64,000 bases of DNA from NCBI RefSeq assembly GCF_017968885.1, contig NZ_CP072913.1, positions 1,534,001-1,598,000 on the forward strand, in the 5' to 3' direction. The DNA comes from Pseudomonas sp. Tri1. Its GTDB lineage: Bacteria; Pseudomonadota; Gammaproteobacteria; Pseudomonadales; Pseudomonadaceae. The notes beneath the pieces were generated by a model. The model made no database searches, was not told the origin of the DNA, and saw nothing but the letters and a program-made list of their open reading frames with translations. The translations under genes were made by a program, and so were the position numbers. This document shows positions 11,070 through 18,204 of this stretch, in pieces; the first letter of the stretch is position 1; each line of letters begins with the position of its first letter.

Positions 11070-12164
11070 ATGTTCAAAGGCTGGTTCCTGATCCCGCTCC
11101 TGCTGCTCACCCTGAATGTCCACGCTGAAGATTGGCCCGGCGAGCAATGGCCAACCGGTCCGCGCCCCACCGGGCCGGCCATCGAAGCCCTGGAGCGATA
11201 CGCCTTCCCACCCCGGGACGATGTCACCCGGCAAGGCATCCGCACTGACGCGCTGCTGGTGATCCAGGACGGTCGGCTGGTCTATGAACGCTACGCCGGG
11301 CCGACCTCTGCCGACACCCCGCACCTGACCTGGTCCGTCAGCAAAAGCCTGATGGCGACGGTGTTTGGCGTGGCCTATGGTCAAAAGCTGTTTGGCCTGC
11401 AGGAGCCGGCGGCCAAATACTACCCGGCGCTGAGCAAGCACCCGGACATGACCCTCGCCGATCTTTTTCACTGGGCCTCGGGCCTGGATTGGCAAGAGGA
11501 CTACGAATACGCGCCGCTCAACTCCTCGGTGGTGGCGATGCTGTATACCCGGGGCCGCCACGACATGGCGGCGTTCACCGCGCAGCATGAAGGCTTCAGC
11601 CCGCCGGGGCAGGCGTTTCGGTACTCCAGCGGCGACAGCAACCTGCTGGCCGCGGCGCTGAAAAACATCGTCGGCCCGGCGCGCTATCCCGATTACCCTT
11701 GGACGGCCCTGTTCGAACCCTTGGGCATTCGCCACGCCATCTGGGAAACCGACGCCAGCGGCACGTTCGTCGGTTCGTCCTATGCCTACCTCACGGCGCG
11801 GGACCTGGCGCGTGTCGGGTTGTTGATGCAACGGGACGGTCGCTGGGGGGAACGGCAGTTGATCCCCAAGGATTGGGTCGCCTTCAATCGCCAGCCCTTC
11901 GCCCGCTTCCAGGCCGGCCAGGACGAGGCCGTCCCCGGAGGGCATTGGTGGCTCAACCGCGCCGTCGACCCGGCGATCCGCCCCTGGCCCGATGCGCCAA
12001 CGGATACATTCGCCGCGTTGGGCCATTGGGGCCAAGTGTTGTACATCATCCCCAGCGCCAGGCTGGTGATCGTGCGCTACGGCGATGACCGCGACGGCAG
12101 CTACCGCCACAATGAACTGCTCAAGCGAGTCATGGCGGTGTTCGCCGGGGCGGTGCAGCCATGA
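11070..12164 (+). CDS. Periplasmic serine hydrolase, beta-lactamase/EstB-like fold
   Basis: 364 residues with a clear signal peptide (MFKGWFLIPLLLLTLNVHA) and so exported. The class-C beta-lactamase/esterase fold is shown by the SXXK motif WSVSKSLMA (Ser89, Lys92), the YSSGDSN motif in place of YXN, and a later HWGQVLYIIPS in place of the KTG strand. This family includes esterases and D-amino-acid peptidases; the substrate is not known. The stop overlaps the next gene by ATGA, so the two are translationally coupled. Confidence 0.85.
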   Translation: MFKGWFLIPLLLLTLNVHAEDWPGEQWPTGPRPTGPAIEALERYAFPPRDDVTRQGIRTDALLVIQDGRLVYERYAGPTSADTPHLTWSVSKSLMATVFGVAYGQKLFGLQEPAAKYYPALSKHPDMTLADLFHWASGLDWQEDYEYAPLNSSVVAMLYTRGRHDMAAFTAQHEGFSPPGQAFRYSSGDSNLLAAALKNIVGPARYPDYPWTALFEPLGIRHAIWETDASGTFVGSSYAYLTARDLARVGLLMQRDGRWGERQLIPKDWVAFNRQPFARFQAGQDEAVPGGHWWLNRAVDPAIRPWPDAPTDTFAALGHWGQVLYIIPSARLVIVRYGDDRDGSYRHNELLKRVMAVFAGAVQP

Positions 12165-12469
12165 GACGCAAACTGTTGCTCACTCTGGCGTTGGCGCTTC
12201 TCATCGCTCTGCTGGGCTGGGTCTGGCTTGAACGGGTGGCGCTGCGGGCCTTTCCCGACATCATCAGTGCCTACACCGCCAAGGAGTACTGCTCGTGCCG
12301 TTACGTGATGGAGCAACCGGCTGATTATTGCCGTGGCTATGTGAAGCAGTCGGTGCCCATCAGTGACTTTCTCGATACCCCCGAAGCGAAGCGCGTCACC
12401 GTCAGCGGGTTGGGGCGTAGCAGCAGCGCGCGGTGGATGGGGGCGCGGCAGGGGTGTCGGTTGGAGTAA
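12161..12469 (+). CDS. Small membrane-anchored protein with Cys motif, unknown function
   Basis: 102 residues. One N-terminal transmembrane helix (LLLTLALALLIALLGWVWL) is followed by a short exported domain with CSCRYVMEQ and DYC and a final Cys, so disulfides or a bound metal are likely. Overlaps the upstream serine hydrolase by 4 bases, so they probably act together. Not recognised beyond that. Confidence 0.75.
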   Translation: MRRKLLLTLALALLIALLGWVWLERVALRAFPDIISAYTAKEYCSCRYVMEQPADYCRGYVKQSVPISDFLDTPEAKRVTVSGLGRSSSARWMGARQGCRLE

Positions 12470-12487
12470 GGCCGGACCCCGATTCTA

Positions 12488-12513
12488 TTGTGGGAGCAAG
12501 GCTTGCCCACAGG
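12488..12513. repeat. Degenerate REP-like hairpin
   Basis: TTGTGGGAGCAAGGCTTGCC followed by CACAG: an imperfect REP palindrome 18 bases after the preceding stop codon. Confidence 0.6.
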
Positions 12514-12610
12514 TTCCCTGTATTTCTGAGCAGTTGTTGAAACGGACAGTTTGCAAGCGCTCTCGGCGCGGTTAAGGTTCGCCACAGGTTTATCTGCCCT
12601 CCGAGTGTGT

Positions 12611-13201
12611 ATGTTCAAGCGGTCTTTCTCTCACGCTGTCGCGACTTTGCTGCTGGCTTGCGCCGCGTTGCCGGCCCAGGCCGATTGGTACCTGGACGGT
12701 GAATCGTCGCGGCTGTCGTTCATCAGTAGCAAAAACGGCAATGTCTCCGAAGTCCAGCGCTTCCTGGTGCTTCATGGCCAAGTCCAGCCCAACGGATTGG
12801 CTCGCCTGGAAGTGGAGCTGGACTCCATCAACAGTGGCATTCCCCTGCGGGACGAACGCATGCGCGCCGAGCTGTTCGAGATCAAGCAATTTGCCGAAGC
12901 CACCATCACTGCACAAATCGACCTGGTGCCGATCCAGGACCTGGCCAACGGAGCGCAGTTGGAATTGCGCCTGCCGCTGACGGTGAACCTGCACGGCAAG
13001 CAGCATGAATACAACGTTGAACTGCTGGCGACACGCCTTGATGAACGACGCTTCCAAGTGGTGACCCTCGAGCCGCTGGTGCTCAACGCCGCGGATTTCG
13101 ACTTGGCGCCGGGCCTGGAGAAGCTGCGTAACCTGGCTGGGTTGTCGGCCATCAGTCTGTCGGTGCCGGTGAATGCGGTACTGATTTTTACGGCGCGCTG
13201 A
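12611..13201 (+). CDS. YceI-family periplasmic lipid-binding protein
   Basis: 196 residues with a cleavable signal peptide (MFKRSFSHAVATLLLACAALPAQA, then DWYLDGESSRLSF). The mature part is a YceI lipocalin-like barrel, a fold that binds polyisoprenoids. The conserved YceI elements are SRLSFISSKNG near the N-terminus, VELDSINSGIPLRDERM, and the LNLHGK-type strand. The reading frame is open 60 bases further upstream, but this ATG gives the signal peptide. Two bases before clsB, so co-transcribed; a role in envelope lipid handling is inferred. Confidence 0.9.
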   Translation: MFKRSFSHAVATLLLACAALPAQADWYLDGESSRLSFISSKNGNVSEVQRFLVLHGQVQPNGLARLEVELDSINSGIPLRDERMRAELFEIKQFAEATITAQIDLVPIQDLANGAQLELRLPLTVNLHGKQHEYNVELLATRLDERRFQVVTLEPLVLNAADFDLAPGLEKLRNLAGLSAISLSVPVNAVLIFTAR

Positions 13202-13202
13202 C

Positions 13203-14360
13203 ATGAGCGGCCCGGTATTTCCCTGGCGTGAAGGCAATCGCTTCGAACTATTGATCGACGGCCCGCAGTTCTTTCCGCGCATGCTGGTGGAAATCGCCCG
13301 TGCCCAGGAACAGGTCGAACTGGAACTGTACCTGGTGGAGGCGGGGGCCTGCGCCGAGGCGATGGTCCAGGCCCTGGTCCAGGCCTCCGAGCGTGGGGTA
13401 CGGGTGCGCTGTCTGTTCGATGACTACGGCAGCCTGGCGTTTACCCTTGGCTTGCGTAACCGCCTGATCGAGGCTGGCGTCGAACTGCGTTTCTACAATC
13501 GCTTGAGCTGGCGCCGCTGGGTACGCAACCTCTACCGCGATCACCGCAAGTTGTTGTTGGTGGATCAGCGTCTGGCAGTGGTTGGTGGCACGGGTGTGAC
13601 CGATGAATTCTGGAACCCCCTCGATGACCACTGTGAGTGGCACGAAGTGATGGTGGAAATCGTCGGTCCGCTGGTGCTCGACTGGCAATTACTGTTCGAT
13701 CGCCAATGGCTCGCCAACCGTCATCGCCGTGCCTGGAAACCGGCCTCCAACTTTGGTTTGCCGCGCTTGCCCCGCGTGCCTCCAATGGGCGAGGGCATGG
13801 GCCGGGTGGCGTATGCCGACGCCCGCCAGCATCGCGATATTCTGCAATCGTTGTCTCGGGCGTTGAACAGTGGTCAGAAGAGGATCTGGATGGCGACGCC
13901 GTATTTCCTGCCGACCTGGAACGTGCGCCGTTCCTTGCGCAAAGCCGCTGCCCGCGGTATTGACGTGCGCCTGTTGCTGACCGGCCCGCGCACCGACCAC
14001 CCCTCCGTGCGCTACGCCGGGCACCGTTACTACCCTCGACTGCTCAAGGCCGGGGTGAAAATATTCGAATACCAGCCATGTTTCCTGCACCTGAAGATGG
14101 TGTTGGTGGACGATTGGGTCAGCATCGGCTCATGCAATTTCGATCACTGGAACCTGCGTTTCAACCTGGAAGCGAACCTTGAAGCCTTGGATTCCGGGCT
14201 CAGCAGTGCGGTGGCGGCGAGTTTCGAACGGGACTTCGCCCAGAGCCTGCAGGTCAGCCTCGACGCCTGGCAGCGTCGACCTCTGTGGAAGCGGGTCAAG
14301 CAGCGGTTGTGGGGGTGGGTGGATCGGGTGGTGGTGAATCTGTTGGATCGGCGGGGTTAG
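13203..14360 (+). CDS. clsB: Cardiolipin synthase B-like phospholipase D superfamily protein
   Basis: 385 residues, close to E. coli ClsB (YbhO). Two HKD half-sites are present: HRKLLLVDQRLAVVGGTG and HLKMVLVDDWVSIGSCNFD. ClsB joins phosphatidylglycerol with another phospholipid to make cardiolipin. There are no long transmembrane helices, as in ClsB and unlike ClsA. Directly follows yceI. The second site has HXK followed by VDD, which is usual. Confidence 0.87.
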   Translation: MSGPVFPWREGNRFELLIDGPQFFPRMLVEIARAQEQVELELYLVEAGACAEAMVQALVQASERGVRVRCLFDDYGSLAFTLGLRNRLIEAGVELRFYNRLSWRRWVRNLYRDHRKLLLVDQRLAVVGGTGVTDEFWNPLDDHCEWHEVMVEIVGPLVLDWQLLFDRQWLANRHRRAWKPASNFGLPRLPRVPPMGEGMGRVAYADARQHRDILQSLSRALNSGQKRIWMATPYFLPTWNVRRSLRKAAARGIDVRLLLTGPRTDHPSVRYAGHRYYPRLLKAGVKIFEYQPCFLHLKMVLVDDWVSIGSCNFDHWNLRFNLEANLEALDSGLSSAVAASFERDFAQSLQVSLDAWQRRPLWKRVKQRLWGWVDRVVVNLLDRRG

Positions 14361-14380
14361 CCCGAACACCCAGATACAAC

Positions 14381-14464
14381 TGTGGGAGCGAGCTTGCTCG
14401 CGATGGCGGTCTGATATTCAACATCTGAGTTGAATGTTAAGCCGCTATCGCGAGCAAGCTCGCT
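14381..14464. repeat. REP pair interrupted by the IS110 element
   Basis: The doublet begins TGTGGGAGCGAGCTTGCTCG at 14381. The inverted arm stops at GCAAGCTCGCT (14464), and its last five bases, CCCAC, reappear at 15634-15638 on the other side of the insertion sequence. This fixes the insertion point to the base. Confidence 0.9.
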
Positions 14465-14484
14465 TGTATGTTTAGACTTGAAGG

Positions 14485-14630
14485 GGTGGGCGGGACTAAA
14501 AGCTCGATTCCGACTCTAGCCAGTACGGACCGTGGGAGACTTCTCGTTCCGCCCTTTCTACCTAAAGCGCCGATAAGGAATTCATCGGTAAAACCGACGA
14601 TAGAGGCAAGCCAGCGCAAAGGTAGACCCC
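14485..14630 (+). ncRNA. Candidate bridge RNA of the IS110 element
   Basis: Two stem-loops fit the two-loop bridge RNA plan. Loop 1 is closed by GGGCGGGA (14488-14495) with TTCCGCCC (14547-14554). It holds AAGCTCG (14500-14506), identical to the seven target bases left of the CT core, and GTGGGAG (14532-14538), the exact complement of core CT plus CCCAC on the right. Loop 2 is closed by TCTACC/GGTAGA and GCGC/GCGC (14557-14570 with 14614-14626). It holds AAGGAAT (14575) and GGCAAG (14605), partly matching the element's own ends. The limits are estimates. Confidence 0.72.
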
Positions 14631-14665
14631 GACAAGCACCTAAACCCTAGCTCCGAGGATTCGTC

Positions 14666-15628
14666 ATGACAATCCTTAACTCACCAACGGTTATTGGTAT
14701 CGATGTAGCGAAGGCCGAAATCGTCGTTTACCGCGAAGACCTGAAAATCACTCAAGCCATCGCCAACAATCGCGAAGCTCTTGGCCGGTGGCTCAAAACG
14801 CTACCAGCCCAAAGCTCGATTGCGCTGGAAGCCACCAGTTTTTATCACCTGGACACAGCTGAGCTGGCCCATGGAATGGGGTTTCATGTTTACGTTGTGG
14901 ATCCTTATCGGGTGGCCCATTACCGTGAAAGTATTGGGCTGCGGGCTAAAACTGATCCTTGTGATGCGCGTTTGCTGGCTCGTTATCTAACGAACGAGCA
15001 AGCAAGGCTGCGTATCTGGAGCCCACCTCCAGAAGCCTACAAAGTGTTAAAAAACCTGCTTAGAAAACGTGCGGCACTCATCAAGGCCCGTGTCAGTATC
15101 GTGCTGAGTTTTTCGAACGAACCGTGCCTAAAGGACATCTTGGCCCGGCAGTTGGAGGTCTTCAAAGAGTCCGATCAGGCCATTCAGAAGCTAATGCGTG
15201 AGGCCAGCCAAGCGGTAGGGATCACTGAAAACATCAACCGCTGCAAAGCCATTGAAGGGATTGGTGAACTGACGGCCATTGGCTTGGCGACCGCATTCAT
15301 GCGCGGTCACTTTGTCAGTGGCGATGCATTCATTGCTTTCTTGGGGATGGATTTGCGTCCAAAAGACTCAGGGAAGAAGCACAGTCCTCGTCACTTGAGC
15401 AAAAAAGGGGACGGGGAGCTACGACGCCTGGCGCACAACGCCGCGATGGCGGCCTGTCGGTCTCCTGCCTGGAAACCTTACTATGAGGCCTTCTTGGCAC
15501 GAGGCCTGGCCAGAACTCAGGCCTTGGTTATCCTTGCCCGCAAGTTGTGTCGGGTAGCATTCGCCCTGATGAAAAATCAGAGCGAATACCAACCAAATTC
15601 ACGGTTGCAGGGTTCCCCTGCAACATAG
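14666..15628 (+). CDS. IS110-family transposase (DEDD recombinase)
   Basis: 320 residues. The N-terminal RuvC-like DEDD domain begins IGIDVAKAEIVVYRE with the first Asp, followed by IALEATSFYH (Glu) and AKTDPCDARLLARYL (Asp, Asp). A central coiled region precedes the C-terminal transposase-20 domain with the invariant Ser region (KAIEGIGELTAIGL, AFLGMDLRPKDSGKK). Full length, no internal stop. The ATG follows a GAGGA ribosome site at 14655. It should use the RNA encoded just upstream to choose REP targets. Confidence 0.93.
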   Translation: MTILNSPTVIGIDVAKAEIVVYREDLKITQAIANNREALGRWLKTLPAQSSIALEATSFYHLDTAELAHGMGFHVYVVDPYRVAHYRESIGLRAKTDPCDARLLARYLTNEQARLRIWSPPPEAYKVLKNLLRKRAALIKARVSIVLSFSNEPCLKDILARQLEVFKESDQAIQKLMREASQAVGITENINRCKAIEGIGELTAIGLATAFMRGHFVSGDAFIAFLGMDLRPKDSGKKHSPRHLSKKGDGELRRLAHNAAMAACRSPAWKPYYEAFLARGLARTQALVILARKLCRVAFALMKNQSEYQPNSRLQGSPAT

Positions 15629-15661
15629 AATCTCCCACGCTGGTTTTGTGTTGCCTGAGGG

Positions 15662-17953
15662 TCAGAGCAACTCAAAACTCTGCTGCTTCACTTCCTGGGA
15701 GTCCAGGCCGATCTGCACGTTGAACTTGCCCGGCTCAGCCGCGTATTTGAGCTGAGCGTTGAAGAACTTCAGGTCATCTTCGGTGATGGTGAAGTGGACG
15801 ACTTTTTTCTCACCGGCCTTGAGCATCACCTTGCGGAAGTTTTTCAGTTCCTTCACCGGACGGATGATCGAGCCGGTCACGTCCTGGATGTACAACTGCA
15901 CCACGGTTTCGCCGTCACGCTTGCCGGTGTTTTCCACCGTCACGCTGGCGTCGAGCTTGCCAGTCTTGTTCAGGGTGGTAGACGACAGGGCCATGTCCGA
16001 CAGGCTGAACTCGGTGTAGCTCAGGCCGTAGCCGAACGGATAAAGCGGGCCGGTGGTGTCATCGAAGTATTGCGAGGTGTAGTTGCCCGGCTTGCCCGGT
16101 GTGAACGGCCGGCCAATGCTCAGGTGGTTGTAGTAGGTCGGAATCTGTCCTACTGAGCGTGGGAAGGTAATCGGTAGCTTGCCCGATGGGTTGTAGTCGC
16201 CGAACAGCACGTCGGCGATGGCGTTGCCGCCTTCGGTGCCGCTGAACCAGGTTTCCAGGATGGCATCGGCCTGTTGTTTTTCTTCGAGCAACGACAGCGG
16301 ACGGCCATTCATCAGCACCAGCACCAACGGCTTGCCGGTGGCCTTCAAGGCCTTGATCAGTTCGCGCTGGCTGGCCGGGATGTTCAGGTCGGTGCGGCTC
16401 GAGGATTCATGGGACATGCCACGGGACTCACCCACGGCGGCTACCACCACATCGGCATCCTTGGCTGCCTTGACCGCTTCGTCGATCAGCACCTGGGCCG
16501 GGCGCGGGTCGTCCACCACTTCCGGTGCGTCGAAGTTAAGGAAGTTCAGGTAGTCGAGCACCTTCTTGTCGCCGGTAATGTTGGCACCACGGGCGTAGAT
16601 CAGCTTCGACTCAGCACCCAGGGCGCGGGTCATGCCATCGAACAAGGTGACCGACTGCGCAGGGCGCCCGGCGGCGGCCCAACTGCCCATCATGTCGATC
16701 GGTGCCTTGGCCAGCGGGCCGACCAGGGCGATTTTCGCGTTTTTGTTCAGGGGCAGGGTCTGGTTGCGGTTTTCCAGCAGCACCAGGCTGCGGCGTGCCA
16801 CGTCACGGGCATCGGCGCGGTGCAGGCGGCTTTCGGCGTAAGTGTCGGCCGGATCGTCCTCGGCCTTGCCGATGCGCAGGTACGGGTCCTTGAACAGGCC
16901 CATGTCGTATTTGGCCGCGAGCACTTCCCGTACCGCGTTGTCGATGTCGCTCTGCTCGATCTCACCGGCCTTGAGCAGCCCTGGCAGCTCCTTGCCGTAG
17001 AGCGAGTCGTTCATGCTCATGTCGATGCCGGCCTTGATTGCCAGCTTCGCCGCTTCGCGACCGTCCTTGGCGACACCGTGCTTGATCAACTCGAAGATGG
17101 CGCCATGGTCACTCACGGCCAGGCCCTTGAAGCCCCACTCCTTGCGCAGCAGGTCGTGCATCAGCCAGGTGTTGGCGGTGGCGGGCACGCCGTTGATGGA
17201 GTTCAGCGCGACCATCACCCCGCCGGCTCCGGCGTCGATGGCGGCGCGGTAAGGCGGCAGGTAGTCCTGGTACATTTTCACCGGGCTCATGTCCACGGTG
17301 TTGTAGTCCCGGCCGCCTTCCACTGCGCCGTAGAGGGCGAAGTGCTTGACGCTGGCCATGATGCTGTCGGCCGCGTTGGCGCCATTACCCTGGAACGCCT
17401 TGACCATCACCCCGGCGATGCGCGACACCAGGTAGGTGTCCTCGCCAAAACCTTCGGAGGTCCGGCCCCAGCGTGGGTCGCGGGAAATGTCGACCATCGG
17501 CGCGAAGGTAATGTCCAGGCTGTCAGCCGCGGCTTCCTGGGCGGCAATGCGGCCGGAGTGGTAGATGGCGTCCATGTCCCAGCTCGAGGCCAGGGCCAGG
17601 GGGATCGGGAAAATGGTGCGATGGCCGTGGATCACGTCATAGGCGAAGAACATCGGGATCTTCAGCCGGCTGCGCATGGCCGCGTCCTGCATCGGACGGT
17701 TTTCAGCGCGAGTGATGGAGTTGAACGTGCCGCCGATGTTGCCGGCAGCGATTTCCTTGCGGATCATCTCCCGGGGCATTTCCGGGCCGATGCTGATCAG
17801 GCGCAATTGGCCGATCTTTTCCTCTAGGGTCATCTGCTTCATCAGGTTGCTGATGAACGCGTCCTTGTTCTCTATGGGGGCAGGCAGGTTGTCGGCTAAT
17901 ACGGATTGACTGGCCAGACTGACAAACAGGCCCAGCAAACACAGCTTCTTCAT
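15662..17953 (-). CDS. bglX: Periplasmic beta-glucosidase, GH3
   Basis: Hydrolyses beta-linked glucosides in the periplasm. 763 residues, full BglX length, with signal peptide MKKLCLLGLFVSLASQSVLA. The N-terminal TIM-barrel domain has KIGQLRLIS, DVIHGHRTIFPIPLALASSWD, the SVKHFALYG strand, and the nucleophile loop GLAVSDHGAI (Asp). The GH3 C-terminal sandwich contains VVAAVGESRGMSHESSSRTD, and a fibronectin-III-like domain closes the protein (about 660-763). Alone on the minus strand, just beyond the IS110 right end; its coding region is not damaged. Confidence 0.95.
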   Translation of the reverse strand: MKKLCLLGLFVSLASQSVLADNLPAPIENKDAFISNLMKQMTLEEKIGQLRLISIGPEMPREMIRKEIAAGNIGGTFNSITRAENRPMQDAAMRSRLKIPMFFAYDVIHGHRTIFPIPLALASSWDMDAIYHSGRIAAQEAAADSLDITFAPMVDISRDPRWGRTSEGFGEDTYLVSRIAGVMVKAFQGNGANAADSIMASVKHFALYGAVEGGRDYNTVDMSPVKMYQDYLPPYRAAIDAGAGGVMVALNSINGVPATANTWLMHDLLRKEWGFKGLAVSDHGAIFELIKHGVAKDGREAAKLAIKAGIDMSMNDSLYGKELPGLLKAGEIEQSDIDNAVREVLAAKYDMGLFKDPYLRIGKAEDDPADTYAESRLHRADARDVARRSLVLLENRNQTLPLNKNAKIALVGPLAKAPIDMMGSWAAAGRPAQSVTLFDGMTRALGAESKLIYARGANITGDKKVLDYLNFLNFDAPEVVDDPRPAQVLIDEAVKAAKDADVVVAAVGESRGMSHESSSRTDLNIPASQRELIKALKATGKPLVLVLMNGRPLSLLEEKQQADAILETWFSGTEGGNAIADVLFGDYNPSGKLPITFPRSVGQIPTYYNHLSIGRPFTPGKPGNYTSQYFDDTTGPLYPFGYGLSYTEFSLSDMALSSTTLNKTGKLDASVTVENTGKRDGETVVQLYIQDVTGSIIRPVKELKNFRKVMLKAGEKKVVHFTITEDDLKFFNAQLKYAAEPGKFNVQIGLDSQEVKQQSFELL

Positions 17954-18204
17954 GAATAGTTTTCTCGCAAGCCTAAAGGGCGGTAATCAGGACACGCCGG
18001 TCAGCCAAAATGTGAGGAGCGGCTATTGTTGTTCGGTTAAATGCAGCACACTTTCGAACCATTGGGCTGAACTTAGTTTCGCACTGCGCATCTTTTAGCC
18101 CATCGACCCGATTCAATCCAGTGCGGCGGCAGATTATGCCCCAGACGCCGGTGAGATAGGTGGCAGTGTTTTTTCCAATGTATCGCAAGGGAGAGCTTCA
18201 CCCG

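Follow-up and report, generated by a model that had tools for sequence, protein, structure and literature searches.

Does the insertion sequence carried by this 64,000-nucleotide stretch of Pseudomonas sp. Tri1 DNA (the window) encode the RNA that selects its landing site? Analysis of its left end, its flanks and related elements suggested an affirmative answer. The IS appears to be a small mobile element of Pseudomonas carrying its own guide RNA, in which the repeat used for insertion is spelled out. Within the full mechanism proposed below, the IS, a member of the IS110 group, very probably uses region 14477-14636 to encode its bridge (seeker) RNA.

The insertion sequence and its REP landing site

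The element (Table 1) was present as nine full copies in its own genome. Its predicted transposase contained both the DEDD_Tnp_IS110 (PF01548) and the Transposase_20/Tnp20 (PF02371) domains, scored 177 bits against the NF033542 "IS110 family RNA-guided transposase" model (cut-off 140), and matched PDB chains of ISCro4 (E = 2.4e-22) and IS621 (E = 8.9e-21). The coding sequence was preceded by 201 nt of non-coding DNA ahead of the ATG and separated from the right core by 3 nt after the stop codon. The domains, the long non-coding left end with a short right end, and the specific target with CT cores all fit the IS110 group of the IS110 family. Transposase matches among the named loci of the genome collection all came from Pseudomonas (48/48), and a search of the plasmid collection found no near-identity match to the IS. 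Scanning 14400-15700 as it stands detected no promoter-like site.

All nine own-genome copies had a CT core on each side and occupied one REP position in one orientation, splitting the repeat as GCGAGCA, then AGCTCG-CT, the element, and CT-CCCAC. The left flank was AAGCTCG in eight copies and AGGCTCG in one, and CT core flanks were also found in the 114 parsed elements of relatives described below. The proposal of the first-pass annotation that a single guide setting gives access to many genomic targets was borne out by exact counts of the 14-nt target, which occurs 929 times in the genome, compared to none for the pattern read backwards; counted by left half, the 14-mers numbered 929 (AAGCTCG), 203 (AGGCTCG), and 64 (AAGCCCG). 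The REP pair beside the element (14393-14458) weakly matched two microRNA families in Rfam below their gathering scores, probably a hairpin artefact.

Table 1. Positions of the insertion sequence, its putative bridge RNA, the interrupted REP, and solo left-end stubs (window positions, except for the stubs, which are numbered within their own loci).
Feature	Position	Strand	Basis or remark
Left target half AAGCTCG of interrupted REP	14456..14462	+	Sequence and nine-copy comparison
Left CT core	14463..14464	+	Sequence and nine-copy comparison
IS110-group insertion sequence, 1167 bp between two CT cores	14465..15631	+	Ends and flanks of nine own-genome copies compared
Closing stem P1, 5' arm CUUGaaGGGG	14477..14486	+	Single folds of 39 distinct left ends; consensus fold
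Target-loop stem P2, 5' arm, GGGCGGGAC	14488..14496	+	Fold; single folds of 39 left ends
Left target guide AAGCTCG (putative)	14500..14506	+	Equals left flank; covaries with flank in relatives
Hairpin separating both target guides	14509..14529	+	Paired in fold; two-sided changes in relatives
Right target guide GTGGGAG (putative)	14532..14538	+	Complement of CT-CCCAC; 7/7 pairs in 106/114 elements
Target-loop stem P2, 3' arm, GTTCCGCCC	14546..14554	+	Fold; single folds of 39 left ends
Donor-loop stem P3, 5' arm (CUACCU and GCGC)	14558..14570	+	Single folds of 39 left ends
Candidate left donor guide GATAAGGAAT	14572..14581	+	Read by eye
Candidate split right donor guide (AU, then GCAAG), complementary to left-end CTTGTAT	14600..14610	+	By eye against the IS621 pattern
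Donor-loop stem P3, 3' arm (GCGC and AGGUAG)	14614..14625	+	Single folds of 39 left ends
Closing stem P1, 3' arm CCCCgaCAAG	14627..14636	+	Single folds of 39 left ends; consensus fold
IS110 transposase gene, 320 aa	14666..15628	+	ORF; PF01548, PF02371; NF033542; PDB chains
Inverted repeat TTGCAGGG-TT-CCCCTGCAA, late in transposase gene	15605..15623	+	Not kept in every relative
TAGAAT, possible -10 box of a circle-formed promoter	15626..15631	+	Identical in the 37 genomes listed; TAG is the transposase stop codon
Right CT core	15632..15633	+	Sequence and nine-copy comparison
Right target half CCCAC	15634..15638	+	Sequence and nine-copy comparison
Solo left-end stub, L010	1501-1529	minus	
Solo left-end stub, L011	1501-1531		
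Solo left-end stub, L180	1556-1583	minus	
Solo left-end stub, L181	762-789		
Solo left-end stub, L182	1505-1534	minus	

Putative bridge RNA in the left end

The left end followed the IS621-type order of a closing stem, a target loop with two guides, and a donor loop. The stem-closed loop at 14488-14554 noted in the first-pass annotation was recovered with exactly those limits, and both guide words attributed to it were located: AAGCTCG is identical to the seven bases left of the CT core at the insertion point and GTGGGAG is the complement of the CT-CCCAC (15632-15638) that follows the right end. When the left end was shuffled 20,000 times with dinucleotides preserved, AAGCTCG arose in 504 shuffles and GTGGGAG in 196, and the ordered pair of guides, 10-45 nt apart, arose in one. 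The element has one other AAGCTCG, at 14812 within the transposase gene, and GTGGGAG was confined to the loop.

Stems lacking conserved pairing among homologues had been named beforehand as an observation that would speak against a bridge RNA. Of 39 distinct left ends, that of the window element included, all except G216 formed the closing, target-loop, and donor-loop stems (38/39), with pair-for-pair compensatory changes such as GGGCGGG/CCCGCCC to GGGUGGG/CCCACCC and CUACC/GGUAG to UCACC/GGUGA. The inner hairpin between the guides was missing from the single folds of three left ends (G011, G216, and G254). Each left end was folded singly because a consensus fold of 35 left ends, judged by eye, shifted the register of stem P2 between subgroups; only 3 of the 30 pairs in that fold had changed on both sides. 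For 14480-14665, the fold energy was ordinary (z = -0.59, with 50 of 200 shuffles as good) and was therefore dropped as evidence for an RNA, and only one of the seven left-guide bases was unpaired in the predicted free RNA of the window element, such that the proposed structure rests on comparison rather than on energy. A search of 12001-18000 against Rfam gave no bridge RNA match.

Mean entropy in a 35-row alignment of left ends was 0.87 bit for the left guide, 0.10 for a conserved neighbour, and 0.05 for the right guide; the linker before the left guide (0.98) and the hairpin loop (1.02) were as variable as the left guide itself. The two bases after the left guide were AU in 28 of 37 genomes, CA in five, and CU in two, with the register unclear in the remaining two; both bases pair with the core in 2/37 genomes (CU) and one does so in 33/37 (AU and CA).

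Covariation of guides and flanks among relatives

Relatives were collected from 298 genomes of the same genus, 40 of which held a transposase match at E <= 1e-60, with at most seven places scored per genome. The own-genome copies, the match loci of the relatives, and 80 further stretches provided 118 elements in 39 genomes (G283 was left out and not every listed copy was included), of which 115 elements in 38 genomes were parsed; removal of the single G091 element, whose left end was not recognised, gave the final set of 114 elements in 37 genomes. Three G052 elements, in which an inserted base caused the loop parser to fail, lie outside this set and by eye have AAGCCCG as both guide and flank; further copies in G125, G022, G052, and G011 also lie outside it. 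In G005 and G128 the guide end was manually set a base earlier, and the right guide of G080 was also positioned manually.

Pairing between the left guide and the element's own left flank was perfect by Watson-Crick rules over all seven bases in 58 of the 114 elements, perfect with wobbles in 71, and had at most one mismatch in 106, wobbles not being scored as mismatches and their weight being the analysts' choice. Permuting the guides among the 37 genomes gave a mean of 5.44 paired bases out of seven versus 6.27 observed, and permutation over the 14 distinct guides gave 4.77 versus 6.23, with none of 20,000 permutations as good in either case. Identical loops at unrelated targets, the other finding held in advance to count against guide function, did not emerge as the pattern, as the same 106 elements paired with their flank and at least two left-guide mismatches were restricted to eight (G186, L046 and L014 of G214, L059 of G128, one in G213, and three in G245). 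The right guide formed 7/7 pairs in 106/114 elements, the misses being six in G080, one in G139, and one in G254. Between them, the two target guides are complementary to both strands at the insertion site.

The 37 genomes contained 14 distinct seven-base left guides, sometimes differing between near-identical transposases. In the transposase tree (36 genomes, constructed without G005, G052, and G091), G039 and G160 with guide AAGCTCG had proteins nearly identical to that of G205 with AGGCTCG, a difference at -6. Departures of guide and flank in company were identified in G070 (AAGCCGG, 1/1), G296 (AAGCCAG, 5/6), G080 (AGCCGCC, 6/6), and G217 (guide ATGCCCG with flank ATGCCCG or ACGCCCG, 4/5), and two G022 copies outside the 114 were located at AAGCTTG, their exact guide. 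On the right side, the G094 guide GTAGGAG and flank CCTAC had changed together in 4/4 elements, and the left-side guides and flanks of this genome also differed together. In G004 and G139, the mismatch adjoined the core in 4/5 landings; the commonest REP allele of these genomes seems to be AAGCCCC, which mismatches their guide beside the core.

Choice among REP alleles within genomes

Alleles were counted as exact 14-mers with left half AAGCTCG, AGGCTCG, or AAGCCCG in 39 genomes. A badly designed REP pattern, AAGCCGSCYCYCCCAC, had 0 matches in the 39 genomes, and other patterns were used in 8 + 1 genomes. The in-genome test covered these three alleles, on which 78 landings from 29 genomes fell; landings are not independent events, and the alleles were chosen after the flanks had been seen. 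Mean pairing was 6.55 compared to 6.36 expected from random REP choice, with 0/20,000 draws as high. In the 12 genomes whose best-paired allele was not the commonest, 13 of 29 landings were on the best-paired allele, a value reached by 4/20,000 null draws. Landings overall favour better-paired REP alleles.

In G125, whose best copy encodes a transposase 99% identical to that of the window element, six of seven copies were at AAGCTCG, which accounts for 106/1074 of the three counted alleles (p = 5.9e-6); the shares were AAGCTCG 10%, AGGCTCG 72%, and AAGCCCG 18%. Both landings in G254 (guide AGACTCG) were at AGGCTCG, representing 45/1287 (3.5%) of the three alleles. Contrary cases were G005 and G128, where elements with guide AAGCTCG landed at AGGCTCG in 4/4 landings on the counted alleles. 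Also contrary were the elements of G205, G267, and G290, with guide AGGCTCG, which landed at AAGCTCG in 6/6 cases via wobble.

Insertions common to G000 (the genome of the window) and G125 were considered as the cause of the G125 bias and rejected, as no shared insertion was seen: comparing the flanks of the nine G000 copies with those of the seven G125 copies yielded nothing beyond short matches of REP type, although most G125 flanks were only 285-594 bases, and at the one exception, a shared intergenic locus (L006 and L044), the two elements lay in opposite orientation. Among the seven transposase copies listed for G125 (L042-L044 and L183-L185), five had a stop codon within the match and a sixth matched residues 1-250 only; three of them were ~98.9% identical to the window element as DNA.

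Candidate donor guides

The guides of the donor loop are candidates and weaker than the target guides. Compared with the right end (..ATAGAAT), GATAAGGAAT showed a single mismatch and a single wobble across the last seven positions. By eye, GCAAG (14606-14610) may pair with the left-end CTTGT if one G-T wobble is allowed, and after a gap the following two left-end bases could be paired by AU (14600-14601). For IS621, the available text describes a right donor guide that is split and includes a G-T pair (PMC11208158). The donor ends were almost invariant among the relatives and so offer no covariation test, leaving these guides as candidates.

Proposed mechanism and alternative explanations

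By analogy with the family, the element would excise as a circle and the transposase would bind an RNA transcribed from 14477-14636, forming an RNA-protein complex. Of the two target-loop guides, AAGCTCG would recognise the bottom strand to the left of the CT core; GTGGGAG would pair to the top strand, spanning the core plus the next five bases on its right. The donor loop, as in other family members, would read the joined ends of the circle (..ATAGAAT-CT-TGTAT..), and strand exchange at the two CT cores would then produce insertion in one orientation at one REP position. Taken as a whole, including pairing, circle, and strand exchange, this bridge RNA explanation is held with high confidence. 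The data directly show the guide-flank identity, the target common to nine copies, the conserved layout, the guide-target covariation, and the in-genome allele bias; production of the RNA and its role in choosing the site are inferred from the family.

The left end could instead be a mere structured 5' leader of the transposase mRNA under antisense control, with the REP palindrome recognised by the protein alone and the guide-like words being REP residues. ISPpu9 provides a precedent, as it has a 244-nt leader with an antisense sRNA over it and also resides in REPs (PMC8450116, in the text available). This reading predicts neither guide changes that track the flanks nor a bias among alleles within a genome, and the difference at -6 between the guides of the near-identical G039, G160, and G205 transposases runs contrary to recognition by protein alone, making it very unlikely; leader control by an antisense RNA can also hold alongside a bridge RNA. 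The match of guide and flank might equally have been produced by gene conversion off a REP, or by joint drift with the host REPs, in which case the guide would not choose the site. The guide does equal the commonest of the three counted REP alleles in 12/29 genomes, as conversion or drift would have it, but the elements of G125 and G254 occupy the minority alleles that best fit their guides, and the 13 landings on best-paired, non-commonest alleles point the same way; this explanation was considered very improbable. The left target guide would rather probably track REP variants by small steps within one genus, guide and host repeat coevolving and an element that has moved to another host keeping to the allele of its old guide.

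Relation to known systems

As far as the available text of the sources extends, bridge RNA/seekRNA, REP targeting in Pseudomonas (ISPpu9, ISPpu10, and ISPa11), guide-target covariation, and natural re-direction are already published. The bridge RNA papers present the same layout, guide-target covariation across thousands of pairings of element and target, and the integration of IS621 into REPs (PMC11208160; PMC11208158), and the seekRNA paper describes natural re-direction in relatives and REP targeting by ISPa11 (PMC11187229). The novelty implied by the first-pass annotation was overstated, since ISPpu10 is one of six elements for which a legend gives predicted pairings of guide and target (PMC11208160) and P. 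putida insertions of ISPpu9 and ISPpu10 at one REP position have been reported (PMC1525189).

IS621 of E. coli resembles the window element in its sequence-related DEDD transposase, CT core, left-end RNA region, and target loop before donor loop, and, in the text available, in a left guide that reads the bottom strand, a right guide that reads the top strand across the core, and a REP target (PMC11208160; PMC11208158). In contrast to IS621, the window element targets the Pseudomonas REP, its right guide pairs over 7 nt rather than the four bases given in the paper, usually only one of the two core bases is paired where IS621 includes the core in the left-guide pairing (PMC11208160), and stem P1 closes over both loops whereas a separate 5' stem-loop is described for IS621. 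ISPpu10 and ISPpu9 of P. putida KT2440, likened here by published description and not by sequence, are IS110-type with a two-base direct repeat and insertion in the Pseudomonas REP (PMC1525189), ISPpu9 also having antisense and downstream sRNAs (PMC8450116). ISEc21 (IS110) and ISPa11 (IS1111, P. aeruginosa REP) likewise have a non-coding-region RNA matching both target strands (PMC11187229); according to the same available text, ISPa11 as an IS1111-group member has this RNA downstream of the gene, whereas it lies upstream in the window element.

The locus is a well supported, ordinary example of a mechanism described in 2024, accompanied by a useful comparative series, and the new detail is the manner in which guides follow REP variants inside one genus. 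No study of guide change along Pseudomonas REP alleles appeared among the titles and abstract beginnings of the papers listed, a weak result as most subscription journals and preprints were outside the search. The sequenced genomes provide natural evidence that the target loop biases which repeat is used when near-identical copies differ at one or two bases. The IS is compact (1.17 kb), its own genome offers hundreds of possible sites, and its relatives have altered guides; together they form a ready panel for gauging the tolerance of mismatches and wobbles and for asking how RNA-guided insertion sequences switch target.

Stubs and unusual copies

BLAST located five solo stubs of the left end, all at the customary REP position, in three of the ten genomes searched; they terminated at left-end position 28-32, and the right end was absent within the 2.4-3 kb examined near them. 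The plain reading is deletion at the G-rich stem by short homology, and scars of aborted insertion are possible. A sixth stub-like match in G022 was at a contig end. The left flank of the G186 element (L192), CTCCCACATTTGGTAG, repeats its right flank, and the element is therefore not in an ordinary REP split. In G066 (L065, C45:123825-127303), two copies of a relative, each within a separate REP copy, are spaced ~1.35 kb apart.
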